From an uncultured Chlorobiaceae bacterium (lineage in GTDB: Bacteria > Bacteroidota > Chlorobiia > Chlorobiales > Chlorobiaceae), in contig CAIRXW010000038.1 of the NCBI GenBank assembly GCA_903882665.1, positions 47,686 through 111,685 on the forward strand: 64,000 bases of DNA, read 5' to 3'. Each line of letters opens with the position of its first letter. Position 1 is the first letter of the stretch. The translations under genes were made by a program, and so were the position numbers. Of this stretch, positions 2,354-24,526 are shown in pieces. A model generated the notes under the pieces. It did not search any database. It was given only the letters and a program-made list of their open reading frames with translations, and was not told the origin of the DNA.

Positions 2354-2848
2354 ATGAAAAAACAGATCTGGCTGGCGGCAGGAATTGCAGGCATGCTTCT
2401 CGGAAGCCCTGCTGCAAACGCAGAAGTAAATGTCCGTATCGGTGGGGGTGATAGGCCGCCCTCTTTTGTTCTTCACAGTCGTCCGAATTTTATCAATATC
2501 CCCAATCTTGGCTTTTCCGTTTCGGTAGGAGGTACTCAGGATGTTATCAGCTTTGGCGATCGTTACTATGTCAACCATAATGGCCGGTGGTATGTAGCTT
2601 CAAATTTCCGCGGACCGTGGATTCTTGTCCATGAGGGGAGACTTCCGAGGCAGATTGGACGTCATCGCTGGGAAGAGATAAGGAATTATCGTGATGTCGA
2701 GTATCGTCGCCACGAAGGAAGGGGTAACCGCGACAACAACAACAACTTCCACAACAATAACCAGAACAATTCTGACGGCAGAGGCCAAAATGACGGCAGG
2801 GGCCAGAATGATGGCAGAGGTCAAAATGATGGCGGCAGAAGAAACTGA
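2354..2848 (+). CDS. Secreted hypothetical protein with aromatic RYYV..GRWYVA..RGPWILV core and RGQNDG repeats
   Basis: N-terminal signal peptide MKKQIWLAAGIAGMLLGSPAANA; C-terminal tandem GRGQND units; paralog of the minus-strand ORF at 3333-3992. Confidence 0.75.
   Translation: MKKQIWLAAGIAGMLLGSPAANAEVNVRIGGGDRPPSFVLHSRPNFINIPNLGFSVSVGGTQDVISFGDRYYVNHNGRWYVASNFRGPWILVHEGRLPRQIGRHRWEEIRNYRDVEYRRHEGRGNRDNNNNFHNNNQNNSDGRGQNDGRGQNDGRGQNDGGRRN
2775..2830 (+). repeat. 18-bp tandem repeat (about 3 copies) encoding DGRGQN
   Basis: gacggcagaggccaaaat / gacggcaggggccagaat / gatggcagaggtcaaaat. Confidence 0.8.
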
Positions 2849-3332: not shown

Positions 3333-3992
3333 CTATCTTCCGCCCCTGCCATCACCGTCATGTTGTCCTCTACCGCCATCTCTGCCACCGTCTCTACCGC
3401 CGTCTCTGCCACCGTCTCTACCGCCGTCTCTGCCGCCGTCTCTACCGCCGTCTCTACCGCCATCCCTGCCACCGTCTCTGCCACCGTCTCTGCCGCCATC
3501 TCTGCCGCCGTCTCTGCCGCCGTCTCTGCCGCCGTCTCTGCCGCCATCCCTGTAGTGGCGATCATAGCGTCGGTTCATATCGTCCCAGTATCTGCGGTCA
3601 TGACGGCGGTACTCATCATCACGGTACCTCCATACATCACCACGATGCCTTCTTATTTTGTAAGGAAGGTCGTAATCCATGATCAGTATCCAGTCACCAC
3701 GATAGTCACCGGAGACGTACCAGCTTCCATCACGATGCAGGTAATAGCGGTCGCCGTAGTAGATGATGTCATAGGGTCCGCCTACAGATACGGAGAAACC
3801 CCGATCTCTGAGATAGATAAAGTCCGGACGCCTGTCGACAATAAAAGCTGGTATATGCCGCCCTCTCTCACCAATACCGATACGTACGTCACCGACACGT
3901 AAACCGACTTCGGCTTGGCTAACGGTTGGTGGATTAGCGCAAAACATTCCCGCAATCCCTGCAACAAGCCAGATCTGTTTTTTCATAGTCAT
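3333..3992 (-). CDS. Secreted hypothetical protein with long GGRD repeat tail
   Basis: Signal peptide MTMKKQIWLVAGIAGMFCANPPTVSQA; core paralogous to the 2354-2848 protein; C-terminal (GGRD)n. Confidence 0.75.
   Translation of the reverse strand: MTMKKQIWLVAGIAGMFCANPPTVSQAEVGLRVGDVRIGIGERGRHIPAFIVDRRPDFIYLRDRGFSVSVGGPYDIIYYGDRYYLHRDGSWYVSGDYRGDWILIMDYDLPYKIRRHRGDVWRYRDDEYRRHDRRYWDDMNRRYDRHYRDGGRDGGRDGGRDGGRDGGRDGGRDGGRDGGRDGGRDGGRDGGRDGGRDGGRDGGRDGGRGQHDGDGRGGR
3372..3551 (-). repeat. 12-bp tandem repeat (about 15 units) encoding GGRD
   Basis: Repeated gccgccgtctct units (+ strand) with gcc/acc, gtc/atc and tct/cct variation only. Confidence 0.9.
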
Positions 3993-12576: not shown

Positions 12577-13988
12577 GTGACAACAGCAAAAGAGCTTCCA
12601 GTCGGCATGTACGATCTGCTCCATACCACGCAACTGCATAAGCGAATTGAAAAAGCGGGTCTGCTTGAGCGTGCTGTTTGGTCAGACTTTGCCGCAGAAG
12701 AGTTTCATCATCACCTCGCCATCCCGCTGGCACACGAAATTGCCGCCTTTATCAGTGAAGCGATTACCGGTAAAAGGGGAGAGGCTTTGACGCAAGCGCT
12801 AAAGTTGGCATTTCAAACACCGGAACACCTCTCTTCAATTATCGAGGCGCTTCGCCCGCTCTCAGCAGAGACCCTTCAGCAGATCAAACCGCCACCGCCT
12901 TTTTCGGCACCAACGCTTCGCCCCGATACACCACTCTCGGTATCAGCCCTGCTTACCGGCTCATCACGAACTCCCTCCCTGCTCACACAGCTCATAAAAG
13001 AACTGGCGAGCTGTGACCGTGCCGACTGGCTTGTCTCGTTTATCAAATTTGCGGGAATCCTGCCCCTGCTTCCCGCCCTGCCTGAGTTCACGCAGAAAGC
13101 CGCACCTGATGGCGGGCCACGCCTGCGCATTGCGACCACATCATACATGGGCACAACAGACCTGAAGGCCATCAAGAACTTGCTTGAACTGCCCAATACT
13201 GAAGTACGGATTTCCTCCGATACCCGGCGCACTCGCCTGCATGCCAAGGCTTATTTATTCCATCGGGCTTCAGGTTTTGGCTCGGCCTATATCGGATCGG
13301 CCAACGTTTCCAAGGCAACGCTTGATGAAGGGCTGGAATGGACGGCAAAAATCAGCCAATATGAGACCGATCATTTGTGGCAGCACGCCAAAGCCACCTT
13401 TTAATCACACTGAGAGGATACAGCAGAATTCACGCCGTGCCGAACAGAGGATTTACCAACCCTTGAGCAAGCTCTGTTGCAGGAGCGCACTTAAGCAAGC
13501 ACGGACGACACCATCTCCTTTTTCGATTTGCGCCCTTACGGCTATCAGCAGGTTATCCTTGAAGATATTGCCGCTGAAAGGGGAGCCGGAAAACAGAAAC
13601 ATCTCGTGATAGCCGCAACAGGTAACGGAAAAACCATGATTGCCGCATTCGACTACAGCCGTTTTTGCAAGGATAACACCGGACGAACAAGGCTGTTGTA
13701 CATTGCCCATCGGGAAGAGATCCTCAAACAAGCCCGGGGAGCATTCCGTCAGGTACTGCGGAATGGAAGCTTCGGCGACCTTGTTGCTGGGAGCTCACAA
13801 CCAACGCAAACCAATAACCTCTTCTGCACCGTACAAAGCTGGAACAGCCGTGGGTATGACCAGTTTCCGGCAACGCATTTTGACTATATCGTGCTTGATG
13901 AAGCCCATCATGCCAGCGCCGCCTCATACCAGAAGCTGATCGGTCATATCCGCCCTTACTCGTTGCTTGGCCTCACCGCCACCCCTGA
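12577..13988 (+). pseudogene. PLD-domain/DEAD-box helicase (DUF3427-type) pseudogene
   Basis: PLD-like RLHAKAYLFHR..GSAYIGSANVSKATLDEGLEW, then helicase DLRPYGYQQ..IAATGNGKTMIAAFDY..LDEAHHA..LLGLTATPE in the SAME frame, interrupted by TAA 13402, TGA 13411 and TAA 13492 and truncated after motif III. Confidence 0.85.
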
Positions 13989-14188
13989 ATGGAAACTTTG
14001 GTAATTGCGCCCCTGTCGGTGAAGAGGTTTCAGAAATGAAGATTGATGTTGGCCCAGGTTATCGAGTGTACTACACCAGAATAGGGGATACGACTTACTT
14101 TCTTTTGGCGGGCGGAGATAAGTCGACGCAATCAAAAGATATTATCCGAGCAAAAAGACTTTCTAAAGAACTTAAGGAGAATAATTAA
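13985..14188 (+). pseudogene. 5'-truncated RelE/HigB-like toxin
   Basis: GNFGNCAPVGEEVSEMKIDVGPGYRVYYTRIGDTTYFLLAGGDKSTQSKDIIRAKRLSKEL matches the C-terminal part of HigB/RelE 'addiction module killer' proteins; the N-terminus is replaced by helicase sequence. Confidence 0.75.
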
Positions 14189-14478
14189 TGAAAACTACAT
14201 GAGTCCCATTTGATATAGCTGATTATCTCGACAACGAAGAAGTTATCGAGGGTTATCTTTCTGCTGCGGCGGAATCCGAGAATCCTGATGTATTTATTTC
14301 CGCTATAGGAGACGTTGCAAAGGCTCGTGAAATGACTAAAATATTAAAAGAAAAGTGGTTAGGCCGCGAAAGCCTCTATAAGGCGTTAAGATTAGGATCG
14401 CACCCACGGTTTGAAACGATCAAAACCGTTCTTCACGCACTCGGAGTTAAGATTGTGGTGAAGTCGAACCAAGTTTAA
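14188..14478 (+). pseudogene. HigA-like antitoxin with in-frame TGA at codon 5
   Basis: ATG AAA ACT ACA TGA then open frame ..FDIADYLDNEEVIEGYLSAAAE..DVFISAIGDVAKAREMTKI..LGRESLYKALR..HPRFETIKTVLHALGVKI..; ATG overlaps the toxin stop (TAATG). Not in the supplied ORF track. Confidence 0.75.
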
Positions 14479-15925: not shown

Positions 15926-15955
15926 AAATGATGGTAGTTGAAGGGTAGTCGACGA
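15926..15955. repeat. Short intergenic repeat, copy 1
   Basis: aaatgatggtagttgaagggtagtcgacga; 25/30 match to 16982-17011. Confidence 0.55.
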
Positions 15956-16042: not shown

Positions 16043-16438
16043 TCAAACCTCACCCATTTCTCTCAATAAATCAGGATGACGATCCACAAGTTTGAGAAGT
16101 TTTACGAGTGGTGCAGGAGGACGTGTTTCGCCTCGTTCATATCTTGAAAAGGCTACTTTTCCAACGCCAAACATTTTTGACAGTTCAGTCTGAGTCAGAT
16201 GAAGTTTTTTTCGGATACGTCGAATATCAGCCCCGACATCACCCTTTACAGTTCGCAAAAGTCCAGCCTGAGCCTCGGTATAACGTCTGTAACTCTCCGC
16301 GTCCCAAACACCTTCGCCGCAGGAAGCGCAAAACTTTACACGCATGGCATGCAAGGTTAAGGATTGACCGCCATAAGAGAGTGTTTCATCAAGAACTTTG
16401 TCACTCATATCAGGAGAGCCACATGCTGGACAATTCAT
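16043..16438 (-). CDS. MqsA-family antitoxin (YgiT-type zinc finger plus HTH)
   Basis: N-terminal CPACGSPDM..VKFCASCGEGVWD zinc finger and HTH LTQTELSKMFGVGKVAFSRYERGETRPPAPLVKLLKLVDRHPDLL. Confidence 0.92.
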   Translation of the reverse strand: MNCPACGSPDMSDKVLDETLSYGGQSLTLHAMRVKFCASCGEGVWDAESYRRYTEAQAGLLRTVKGDVGADIRRIRKKLHLTQTELSKMFGVGKVAFSRYERGETRPPAPLVKLLKLVDRHPDLLREMGEV

Positions 16439-16450
16439 AAGAGGTATACC

Positions 16451-16834
16451 TTATTTTGCTTTAAACTGAATAATCGGAGGTCGATTATCTGAAAACCCTG
16501 CAATCTTGATGTAGACAACCACTCCTTCCAAAGTTTCACCATGGTAGACATCCTGACATACGTGGTAATCTGTATGGGTAGTTATTGATTTATAAAAATC
16601 AGTTCTTGAAAGAGAAAGAACAACCTGTCGCATTTCCAACTCTGTCAATCCTAAAGATAGTCCACCGATCAATGCTAACCTTGTAAACACACGAGTGTAT
16701 GTATTCGCCACAGTATCACCAGCAAGGATAAGAAGGGAATCTTTGTCGCTCTCAAGTTCAGGAATAACGTAGTTACGGCCGTATTCGCCAAAATAGAACT
16801 CGTTGTGGATGTCAGAGAGCACTCTTATCAGCAT
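16451..16834 (-). CDS. Chimeric ORF: metallophosphoesterase N-terminal fragment fused to MqsR-like toxin
   Basis: aa 1-48 MLIRVLSDIHNEFYF..DKDSLLILAGDT (calcineurin-like phosphoesterase motifs); remainder LGLTELEMRQVVLSLSRTDFYKSITTHTDYHVCQDVYHGETLEGVVVYIKI..PPIIQFKAK resembles MqsR. Confidence 0.75.
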   Translation of the reverse strand: MLIRVLSDIHNEFYFGEYGRNYVIPELESDKDSLLILAGDTVANTYTRVFTRLALIGGLSLGLTELEMRQVVLSLSRTDFYKSITTHTDYHVCQDVYHGETLEGVVVYIKIAGFSDNRPPIIQFKAK

Positions 16835-16981: not shown

Positions 16982-17011
16982 AAATGATGATAGTTGAAGG
17001 TGAGTCGCGGA
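16982..17011. repeat. Short intergenic repeat, copy 2
   Basis: aaatgatgatagttgaaggtgagtcgcgga; 25/30 match to 15926-15955. Confidence 0.55.
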
Positions 17012-17029: not shown

Positions 17030-17287
17030 TCATGCCAGAACCTTGTCTGTAATACTACCGGTTACTTTCCATTTGGCTTCGATGGTATCGACGGACAAAT
17101 CGGCGCCGCAGGCCCATTCAACAAAATAGCCACCGTTCGAAATCTCCATAAACTCGGCTACTGTTTTTAACGCTTCAAAAGCTTCGTATTGCAGGTACGG
17201 ATTCACATCAAATTCACCGACACGACCATCATCAGCAACAATGGTTATCGTTTTATCTTGGTGAGGTGTAATGTTCATGATTTTCAT
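17030..17287 (-). CDS. DUF2442-family protein
   Basis: MNITPHQDKTITIVADDGRVGEFDVNPYL..FMEISNGGYFVEWACGADLSVDTIEAKW. Confidence 0.85.
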   Translation of the reverse strand: MKIMNITPHQDKTITIVADDGRVGEFDVNPYLQYEAFEALKTVAEFMEISNGGYFVEWACGADLSVDTIEAKWKVTGSITDKVLA

Positions 17288-17541
17288 TGGTCAAGCCCCT
17301 TGATTGTAAAAGGTTTTCTGCCATTGACAGCCAGTTCCCAATCAGCGATAAGATCGTCTCTATGAATTTCAATCCAAGCTACGACAAGTTTGTGCTTGTT
17401 CGGTGTCAACTCACCAGCGAGAAGAATCCCGTCAGGAATAGAATACACTCCAACCAGTCCCTGATAATCTGCATGAATATGGGGAATAAAGTGCTTTTCA
17501 GTGTCGCGGAAAAACATACGAATAAGCACCCCGTAAAACAT
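17284..17541 (-). CDS. DUF4160-family protein
   Basis: PHIHADYQGLVGVYSIPDGILLAGELTPNKHKLVVAWIEIHRDDLIADWEL; 4-bp overlap with the DUF2442 gene. Confidence 0.88.
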   Translation of the reverse strand: MFYGVLIRMFFRDTEKHFIPHIHADYQGLVGVYSIPDGILLAGELTPNKHKLVVAWIEIHRDDLIADWELAVNGRKPFTIKGLDQ

Positions 17542-21435: not shown

Positions 21436-23268
21436 CTACTTTTTTTCTGGTACTTCGCGCTCTTCCTTGACGGCATAGTTGATCAGATAGTCGTAGAGCC
21501 TGATAAGGCGCGAATTCTGATTGTTCTGATCGATCCAGTGACCAATCATACCGATGGTACGAGCCAGAACGAAGAAGCCGTTGAGTGAGTATTCCGGGAA
21601 GTCAAGATCCACAAGAATGCAGCCGATGGTGCCGTCTACGTTCAGGATGAGGTTATCCTTCTTGGCTGTGGTAATCTTTTCGACCTGAAGTGCATAGTCG
21701 AGGCAAGGGGTATGCAGCGTCGTCTGCTTTGTAACGTATTCAACCAGATATTTTACCCGTTTATCCGGATTTTTGACGCTCTTCACCCTGTGGCCGATGC
21801 CCGGAACCGGACCGACATTCTGCTTCATCCAGTTCAGAAATCCCGGGATATCATTCGGATACTCCTTGACGCCGTACTTGAAATATTTTCCGGCATTGGT
21901 AACTGCGCCGCCGAATCTTGGCCCGATCATGGTCATGCCTGCAGAGACCGCCTGTGGCAGGTCGATTCCTGCACATGCGGCAATAATGGCGCCGAATGCG
22001 CCGGAAACTGCCGGGCCGTGGTCGGCTGAAATCATGATAATGCGTTTGATGATTTCAGACTCTTCTTTTGATGGAAGTTTTTTGTTCCACAAAAGACCGA
22101 TAACGTCCTCGATGCCATATCCTTTCTCGCACAGTTCTGATGCGGCATAGCCAACGTAACGGGGCTCTTCTCCACGGTCGTCAGAAATGGTGGTACGAAT
22201 AAGGGGTTCGACAATGACGTCGCCCTGCTTCATGACCTCCTGAACACTCGGAGGAAGTGCTGGAAGGAGTGCCTCCTCAAGTTCTGCTTCCGGTTTTATC
22301 ACGCCACTCTTGAGCAACTCCTGGTAAACTTGCTTGATCGCCTTGCTGAGTCCACCGAAGGTCTCGGGAACAACGGCTCCAGCTTCCCGCAGTGCATTGA
22401 TTTTCGAGCGTGCTGATCCAAGCCCTTTTTTACCCTCTTTTGCACCGGCATGTCCGAATTTCATTCCCTGGGGAAGTACATCCTGGCAGGTTCCACCGAT
22501 TGAAGCGATCACTTTAATGCGTCGTATCTCTTTGCCGAGCCATTCAGCAGCCTCTTCTTCAAGCGTTCCGCCAACCTCTCCGATGATAACGACAGCCTTG
22601 GTGTCTGGATCGTTTTCAAACATATTGAGGTAGGTGACGAAGTCCGTACCTGGATAGGAGTCTCCGCCGATAGCTACGGCCGAAGTGATTCCATTACCAT
22701 TCTGGGCACAGAGCCACATCGCTTCGTTCGAAAGTCCGCCTGACTTGGTGATGACACCAAATGAACCTGGACGGTAAAGGTTACAAAGTTTCAGGTTTTT
22801 AAACTCTCCACCAATAACGCCAAGGCGACACTCTCCTGCCGACATGATACCAATCGAGGATGGTCCGTTGAAAATTTTGCCTTTCTCAATTGCATACTTG
22901 CGCAGTCGTTTGGCATCTTTTTCCGGAACCCCTTCGGTAATCATGGTCACAAGCTTGATCCCTTTTGCATCAAGCGCCTCTTTTGCTGACTGGTATGCAC
23001 GGGATGCGCCGATATAGATAAGCGCGGTATTGATTTGAGGGTTCTCCTCAAGAGCTTTTTCGAGCGAGGAGTAAACAGTAACATTGTTCAGCTCCCCTCC
23101 CCGGTAAATCTCTTTCTGCTGGCCCTCTTCCGGCGGGTAAACAAACGCCTGCACCGTCAGCGACCGGTTAATCAGAAAGTCGAACTGAGCCATCCGCCTT
23201 GCAGCATTCACTCCAGCAATACCGCCAATGATGACCGCTCGTGTATCCTTATTTGCTAAAATACTCAC
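21436..23268 (-). CDS. aclA: ATP-citrate lyase large subunit (succinyl-CoA ligase/citrate synthase-like)
   Basis: YRPGSFGVITKSGGLSNE, KFGHAGAKEGKKGLGSARSKI, C-terminal citrate synthase-like VGPVPGIGHRVKSVKNPDKRV. Confidence 0.93.
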   Translation of the reverse strand: MSILANKDTRAVIIGGIAGVNAARRMAQFDFLINRSLTVQAFVYPPEEGQQKEIYRGGELNNVTVYSSLEKALEENPQINTALIYIGASRAYQSAKEALDAKGIKLVTMITEGVPEKDAKRLRKYAIEKGKIFNGPSSIGIMSAGECRLGVIGGEFKNLKLCNLYRPGSFGVITKSGGLSNEAMWLCAQNGNGITSAVAIGGDSYPGTDFVTYLNMFENDPDTKAVVIIGEVGGTLEEEAAEWLGKEIRRIKVIASIGGTCQDVLPQGMKFGHAGAKEGKKGLGSARSKINALREAGAVVPETFGGLSKAIKQVYQELLKSGVIKPEAELEEALLPALPPSVQEVMKQGDVIVEPLIRTTISDDRGEEPRYVGYAASELCEKGYGIEDVIGLLWNKKLPSKEESEIIKRIIMISADHGPAVSGAFGAIIAACAGIDLPQAVSAGMTMIGPRFGGAVTNAGKYFKYGVKEYPNDIPGFLNWMKQNVGPVPGIGHRVKSVKNPDKRVKYLVEYVTKQTTLHTPCLDYALQVEKITTAKKDNLILNVDGTIGCILVDLDFPEYSLNGFFVLARTIGMIGHWIDQNNQNSRLIRLYDYLINYAVKEEREVPEKK

Positions 23269-23329
23269 GATTCTTACGGTTTATAAGTTAGAAGTTTCTC
23301 TTTGGGGTTCCTGCGATACCGCCTTGCTG

Positions 23330-24526
23330 TTATGAATTCAGGGCAAGGTCAACAATATCGGTCATAGGCATGCTGCGATCGTAAACATGGATGTCGAATC
23401 CTTCTTCTTGCAGCTTTTTCATTGCGGCAAGTCCCTGGTTTTCATTCGGTCCACCGCGTCTGACCCAAATTTGCACATTTTCAAGATACCCTTTCGATTT
23501 GCTCTCACGGAATCCGTTGATAATGCCGCTGAAGGTCGCCTTGACATCAGTGAAATTGGCTATGGCACCGCCGACAATAATATGTTTGATATGGGGAAGT
23601 CGGCAGATAGTCTCTGTCAGAGCCTCTACTGCCCAGTCCGGAGGATCACCGGAATATTCTGCGTAATTGGCAATGGAACCACCTCTGGCGACCACAGCAT
23701 CAGAATAAAAGACCGAAGCGCCACCGCCAGCCGTAAGCAGTGCAATGTCTCCACCCGGCACTTCAACCAGCTTGACCGATCCCTTGATACGGGCATCGAT
23801 ATCCATGATCTGCTGTTCAGCTTCAGTGTAAGAGCGTCCGATTTCGGAAACCGGTTTAAAATCCCAGTCAGCATGACGGAAGCGAGCGTCCCAATCAATG
23901 TTCATGACAGCATCAAGTGCAGCAAAGCGCATGTCACTCTTGCGTATGACAAGCGGATTGATTTCAATCGACTGTGCGTCTTCATCTTCAAAACAGAGAA
24001 TAAGACGTGATGCAATTTTAGCGACACGCTCAGCGATCTCACCCGTGAAACCAGCTTCATGGGCTGCTTCGGTAATACTTTCAAGAGTCGGCGTTTCATC
24101 AAGAGGAATGAAAAGCCGCTTTACGGTATCCCAGTTCTCTTCGATATCCACACCACCCTTGTTGGAAAGGAGAAGCTCGCTTCCGTCGCGGTTACCGGCA
24201 ATGGATAAATAGTACTCCTCATCATGGTCAAGCATCTCGGCAACAATAACCTGATGAACAACCGATGTACCGATTTCGCGTCCAATCATCTCTTTTGCTG
24301 CGTCATAAGCCTCGTCAAGATTCAGTCCAAGCTTGACCAGTCCGAGCTTGAATCGCCCTCCGATAGCTTCATGAGCTTTCACAACGAGTTTTGATTCTCT
24401 CAACCATTTATTAGCTTCCCCAAGCTGCGCAAGGCGGTCGGGATCCATGATAACAACATAATTTGGCACAGGAATGCCCCATTTGTTGAATAGTTTCATG
24501 GCTGGCCCTTCAAGTATCTTAGCCAT
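23330..24526 (-). CDS. aclB: ATP-citrate lyase small subunit (ATP-grasp)
   Basis: AKILEGPAMKLFNKWGIPVPNYVV, ATP-grasp/succinyl-CoA-synthetase-beta-like; immediately upstream of aclA. Confidence 0.92.
   Translation of the reverse strand: MAKILEGPAMKLFNKWGIPVPNYVVIMDPDRLAQLGEANKWLRESKLVVKAHEAIGGRFKLGLVKLGLNLDEAYDAAKEMIGREIGTSVVHQVIVAEMLDHDEEYYLSIAGNRDGSELLLSNKGGVDIEENWDTVKRLFIPLDETPTLESITEAAHEAGFTGEIAERVAKIASRLILCFEDEDAQSIEINPLVIRKSDMRFAALDAVMNIDWDARFRHADWDFKPVSEIGRSYTEAEQQIMDIDARIKGSVKLVEVPGGDIALLTAGGGASVFYSDAVVARGGSIANYAEYSGDPPDWAVEALTETICRLPHIKHIIVGGAIANFTDVKATFSGIINGFRESKSKGYLENVQIWVRRGGPNENQGLAAMKKLQEEGFDIHVYDRSMPMTDIVDLALNS

Follow-up and report, generated by a model that had tools for sequence, protein, structure and literature searches.

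A 127-residue reading frame that begins as a metallophosphoesterase, ends as an MqsR toxin and lies beside a gene for the MqsA antitoxin raises the question of whether such a locus encodes a new kind of toxin or the remains of an old one. A sequence-only reading of this DNA had left both answers standing, proposing either a deletion fusion that kept its frame and may still make a toxin, or a new toxin architecture with a replaced N-terminus and a phosphoesterase promoter. We examined the locus within the whole stretch of 64,000 nucleotides that was analyzed (the window), which comes from a Chlorobium-like draft genome of 2.81 Mb in 57 contigs; an ATP-citrate lyase gene pair and an arginine operon were recognized in the window by eye. 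The features are collected in Table 1.

Table 1. Positions in the window of the chimera, its two parts and neighboring features
Feature	Position	Strand	Remarks
Shorter gene related to the GGRD-repeat gene	2354-2848	+	
GGRD-repeat gene	3333-3992	-	secreted-looking protein, long GGRD repeat run at C-terminus
Decayed second TA module	13528-14478	+	truncated ResIII-type helicase, then the two genes below
Truncated RelE-type toxin	13967-14188	+	TIGR02683
Truncated HI1420-type antidote	14332-14478	+	
26-nt direct repeat, copy 1	15926-15951	+	mqsA side of unit
mqsA antitoxin gene, intact	16043-16438	-	four zinc cysteines and HTH domain
Chimeric ORF	16451-16834	-	127 aa
Stop codon of chimera	16451-16453	-	
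MqsR portion (codons 41-127), residue ~16 to C-terminus	16454-16714	-	PF15723, 8e-21
Join of phosphoesterase and mqsR DNA	16710-16719	-	TGATA/CTGTG; breakpoint 16714/16715
Codons 1-40, metallophosphoesterase start	16715-16834	-	motifs SDIHNEF and LAGD
26-nt direct repeat, copy 2	16982-17007	+	between dhiA-like gene and chimera
DUF2442, DhiA-like antitoxin, neighboring module	17030-17287	-	PF10387, 2e-13; weak NF048016 DhiA match, E 0.017
DUF4160, DhiT-like toxin, neighboring module	17284-17541	-	PF13711, 2.5e-18; NF048015 DhiT, 2.7e-19, below NCBI's cut-off
ATP-citrate lyase pair	21436-24526		

Two parents in one reading frame

The reading frame was confirmed in the window, and the proposal that an MqsR cut short at its N-terminus is fused in frame to the start of a phosphoesterase, beside MqsA, was supported. 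Its first 40 codons share 67% amino acid identity with residues 1 to 40 of 262-residue Chlorobium phosphoesterases and hold motifs I (D-x-H) and II (GD); a full-length phosphoesterase relative belongs to PF00149, and the 41-residue part in the chimera has no Pfam match. GNHE and the later metal-binding motifs are absent, as had been claimed, leaving only the first two. The phosphoesterase part had been put at 48 residues, a figure that must be shortened to 40 codons, as homology to the phosphoesterases of about 262 residues ends at codon 40/41 and MqsR homology begins at codon 41/42. The full-length phosphoesterase is an accessory gene in Chlorobium (loci L032, L033, L035 and L044), and its neighbors there, read by eye, resemble TA or addiction-module genes in several genomes.

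The assignment of the C-terminal part to MqsR holds. The Pfam profile MqsR_toxin (PF15723) matches residues 41 to 125 over profile positions 12 to 94 of 95, with a score of 74.7 bits above the curated cut-off of 26.2, and Escherichia coli MqsR (3hi2) is the sole PDB match to this half in phmmer (1.2e-9). The MqsR part is 73% identical to the native MqsR of genome G070 and 80% identical in DNA to relatives, and the matches to the parents on either side of the join lie far above chance level. Whereas about 25 residues of MqsR had been thought missing, comparison with the nearest native N-terminus (MEKRTTHYVLTEIQTTVANLGTRVFTRLA in genome G064) reduces the loss to about 15 residues and the protein's own start; strand beta1 and half of helix alpha1 are missing. 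Compared with G070, the mqsR part has a dN/dS of 0.17, which is not neutral, but constraint on the chimera cannot be inferred from this value because most of the divergence may predate the fusion.

The antitoxin gene begins 12 bp downstream of the chimera, and its reading as a zinc-finger and HTH protein of the MqsA family was confirmed by PF15731 (MqsA_antitoxin, 3.6e-47) over the whole ORF and by TIGR03830 (5.3e-41). Its product is 90% identical to the MqsA of G064, and the dN/dS of mqsA, in the same comparison with G070 as for the mqsR part, is 0.08.

Two copies of a 26-nt direct repeat, 88% identical and spaced 1056 bp apart, flank the chimera-mqsA unit, and these are the only two good copies in the genome; we rejected the idea that the repeat is a dispersed element, as a third copy was seen only once, inside a glycosyltransferase-like ORF and with 3 mismatches, and probably arose by chance. 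The adjacent DUF4160/DUF2442 pair resembles the DhiT/DhiA TA system and is separate from the chimera.

Position and distribution of the junction

Phosphoesterase DNA homology stops at codon 40 (GGTGAT). At the position of the join, phosphoesterase relatives read GGTGATATCGGG and the nearest mqsR relative, G064, reads CAAACTACTGTGGCAAAT; because the DNA of the closest native mqsR N-terminus, also in G064, reads ATTCAAACTACTGTGGCAAATCTGGGC, codon 41 (ACT) of the chimera onward is mqsR. About 2 bp (TA) of possible microhomology can be assigned to either parent, which would fit end joining at sites of little or no homology. The genome holds neither the remainder of the phosphoesterase gene nor the start of mqsR at any other place.

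The same junction was sought elsewhere, a check that the sequence-only reading had itself suggested, and no second genome was found to carry it. Among 98 genomes of the order Chlorobiales, relatives match either residues ~40 to 127 (normal MqsRs, ~60-75% identical) or residues 1 to 41 (the starts of phosphoesterases of ~262 residues, ~55-68% identical), and neither protein nor DNA search found both parts joined. A probe spanning the junction had no match in 395 genomes of the phylum, and pattern scans of genome and viral contigs, which were coarser and based on six short peptides, found no junction. Plasmid matches cover the MqsR part only, and phages gave no match; no relative was found in which the phosphoesterase adjoins mqsRA, and a literature search on phosphoesterase and MqsR together returned nothing. 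Three apparent matches were rejected: one viral contig has an exact copy of an 18-mer that crosses the join, a chance match in unrelated surroundings, a DNA match in G064 that starts at the join, at first taken as a shared junction, is the native mqsR N-terminus, and a match in G038 that seemed to span the junction (residues 15 to 82) comes from an mqsR that is frameshifted and has its native N-terminus.

The DNA ahead of the phosphoesterase is not conserved among its relatives, so that the proposed phosphoesterase promoter could not be traced, and a promoter scan gave no more sites than shuffled sequences did. Upstream of the relatives' mqsR lies a conserved AT-rich palindrome, TTTATCA..TTGATTAAA, close to TTTATCATTTTGATTAAA, which is likely an autoregulatory operator or a promoter element of the Chlorobiaceae mqsRA genes. 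The palindrome had no match in the window at up to 3 mismatches, and the Chlorobiaceae consensus revealed no MqsA operator there; autoregulation at the chimera locus is doubtful because the palindrome is lost. Promoters of E. coli mqsA also lie inside mqsR (PMC6918082); thus MqsA may still be expressed at the chimera locus, where it is presumably still made.

Toxin loss and antitoxin retention in the Chlorobiaceae

Those relatives of the mqsRA locus that have a name belong to the Chlorobiaceae, and in this family the chimera is far from the only toxin gene to have suffered. In a survey of the order Chlorobiales we found 33 full-length, stop-free mqsA genes. The mqsR beside them is intact in 15 cases, damaged or deleted in 17, the chimera itself among them, and undecided in one at a contig end (G032), and the survey found no intact mqsR without an intact mqsA. 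The imbalance of 17 to 0 has p 1.5e-5, and when events are grouped by shared breakpoints, rather than by tree, about 13 distinct mqsR-damage events against 0 still give p 2.4e-4.

The damage takes several forms. Internal or terminal deletions occur in G064 (the nearest relative of the chimera locus, with a deletion different from that of the chimera), in G072:C241 and G075 at one shared place, in G028 and G024 at another, and in G042 and G031. In four loci mqsR has been wholly removed, with the palindrome and mqsA kept (L182 in G079, L183 in G067, L188 in G005 and L176 in G016), and the deletion ends of G079 and G067 lie in AAGCAAAA direct repeats. In G027 (L171/L144) an internal deletion of residues ~9 to 56 stayed in frame, joining MEKRTPHY to KSMTTH and leaving a short open frame ahead of an intact mqsA. 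Frameshifts account for G038, G065, G050 and G018; where a frameshift of a single base occurs in a metagenome-assembled genome it could be an error, whereas the deletions are clean.

This asymmetry probably follows from the established logic of TA systems, in which a cell survives the loss of the toxin first but not the loss of the antitoxin first. Pairs of lone mqsA genes have dN/dS values of 0.07-0.30 over few sites, which is compatible with continuing constraint. Taken alone, the chimera is one broken toxin gene; we find the recurrent loss of mqsR with retention of mqsA the more interesting observation, as roughly a dozen different breaks have deprived about half of the otherwise intact MqsA proteins of their toxin, a clear asymmetry within one family. 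It raises the question of whether lone MqsA proteins are retained for an anti-addiction or regulatory role, or simply decay more slowly than the other half of a dying module.

Function of the chimera and its place among known systems

In regard to what the chimera could still do, it can be seen as a natural N-terminal deletion mutant of MqsR. The N-terminal motif MEKxxPHY, carried by nearly all MqsR ORFs examined in several phyla and wanting only in two decayed copies, is absent from the chimera, and the His7 region is missing. In the E. coli protein beta1 extends the sheet, beta2 (residues 22-25) pairs with MqsA, and K56, Q68, Y81 and K96 are required for toxicity (PMC2791442). Alignments place these four at K82, Q94, Y108 and K125 of the chimera, all retained, and the beta2 region is retained as well (R48-T51), together with R52, the equivalent of E. 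coli R26. The Trp of WQDVY is replaced by Cys, and among relatives that reach this position only one other lacks the Trp. The E. coli variants H7A, M58A and H64A are still toxic in vivo (PMC2791442), so losing single conserved residues need not disarm MqsR, and H7A has reduced RNA cleavage (PMC9636575).

AlphaFold2 modeled the native MqsR of G070 with pLDDT 81 and pTM 0.75, and this model has a single significant PDB match in Foldseek, 3hi2 (1.1e-5). The chimera gave pLDDT 46 from a shallow, two-block alignment, with residues 1 to 40 averaging about 30 and the last strand unformed; the alignment makes this model suggestive only and may account in part for its poor quality.

We therefore favor, with a probability of about 0.78, the reading that the chimera is a one-off, in-frame and probably disabled toxin that leaves MqsA effectively an orphan antitoxin. 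Comparison with the relatives shows that a one-off rearrangement in a Chlorobium chromosome put the start codon and first 40 codons of a phosphoesterase in frame with about codon 16 of mqsR and removed the upstream region, start codon and N-terminal part of mqsR. Judged by the loss of the N-terminus, the replacement of Trp by Cys and the model, the 127-residue product probably misfolds or has little RNase activity. The locus would then act as an antitoxin whose partner is either dead or bound. As the survey shows, it belongs to a recurrent Chlorobiaceae class with a deleted or broken mqsR beside a retained mqsA, and the chimera fits as a member of the toxin-loss series whose joint chanced to stay in frame. 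A lone MqsA may still serve as an anti-addiction factor or repressor.

Alternatively, the chimera may be non-toxic and yet kept as a partner of MqsA, for example by binding it and modulating its DNA binding. The MqsA-binding strand and the Arg at R52 are in place (PMC2791442), and regulation by an inactive TA pair has a precedent (PMC11826091). We consider this unlikely, as the lost palindrome makes autoregulation doubtful and there is no sign of conservation beyond one genome.

A working toxin, in which phosphoesterase residues replace the lost strand and helix to support RNase activity and MqsA neutralizes the product, strikes us as improbable. The frame is open, neither the catalytic residues nor the MqsA-binding strand has been lost, and an intact mqsA lies next door; indeed, the retained residues and strand are the reason that the suggestion of a toxin still being made stays alive, and some residual toxicity is possible. 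A toxin is nevertheless unlikely to be made: the N-terminal 40 residues and the last strand are unfolded in the model, the Trp is changed, the His7 region, where H7A lowers cleavage in E. coli (PMC9636575), is lost, the junction is not shared by the other genomes searched, and half of the related loci have lost their toxin. The confinement of the junction to one genome among those searched, the lack of a folded N-terminal domain in the model and the various losses of mqsR in relatives tell against a new toxin architecture. Decidedly improbable, in our view, is a chimera that works wholly or partly as an MqsR, with phosphoesterase residues standing in for the N-terminal strand and helix and with expression released from autoregulation by MqsA; if true, it would be a natural exchange of the N-terminus of a type II toxin.

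Translation could in principle restart at the GTG of codon 42, which lies 3 nt after the Shine-Dalgarno-like GGTGAT, to give an N-terminally truncated MqsR of 86 residues, and in the unrelated viral contig the same 18-mer occupies the place at which an ORF with a GTG start would open. This we hold to be very improbable, since GGTGAT is simply the Gly-Asp codons of the phosphoesterase and a protein started there would again be without beta1 and half of alpha1. That the assembly joined two loci in error, which the draft state of the 57-contig genome and the occurrence of the junction in one genome might suggest, is scarcely credible given that the junction is in the middle of its contig (at 64.4 kb of 111 kb), that neither parent has another copy in the genome to be confused with, and that completeness is 99.88 and contamination 0.08.

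Several known systems bear comparison with the chimera and its locus. From the calcineurin-like metallophosphoesterases (PF00149), in their 262-residue Chlorobium form, the chimera shares the first 40 codons with motifs I and II but, unlike them, lacks all later motifs, and the two-metal site cannot form. As in the type II system MqsRA of E. coli (MqsR b3022 and MqsA b3021, PDB 3hi2), the toxin gene comes first with the antitoxin directly downstream, the MqsR domain has the equivalents of K56, Q68, Y81 and K96, and MqsA has a zinc finger and HTH; the chimera differs in carrying 40 phosphoesterase residues in place of the first ~15 residues of MqsR and its own start, and the locus differs from its relatives' mqsRA in lacking the conserved upstream palindrome. 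MtvT/MtvA illustrates that a TA pair with a non-toxic toxin can have a regulatory role (PMC11826091), although MtvT is no chimera and its antitoxin belongs to an unrelated, MazE-like family. Known and abundant as a kind are orphan antitoxins, as in Klebsiella (PMC7192599) and E. coli (PMC10790755), for which anti-addiction or regulatory roles have been proposed (PMC7192599, PMC10790755). The locus resembles these in keeping its antitoxin while its toxin is missing or damaged, and it differs from them in holding the toxin remnant as an open frame ahead of the antitoxin.
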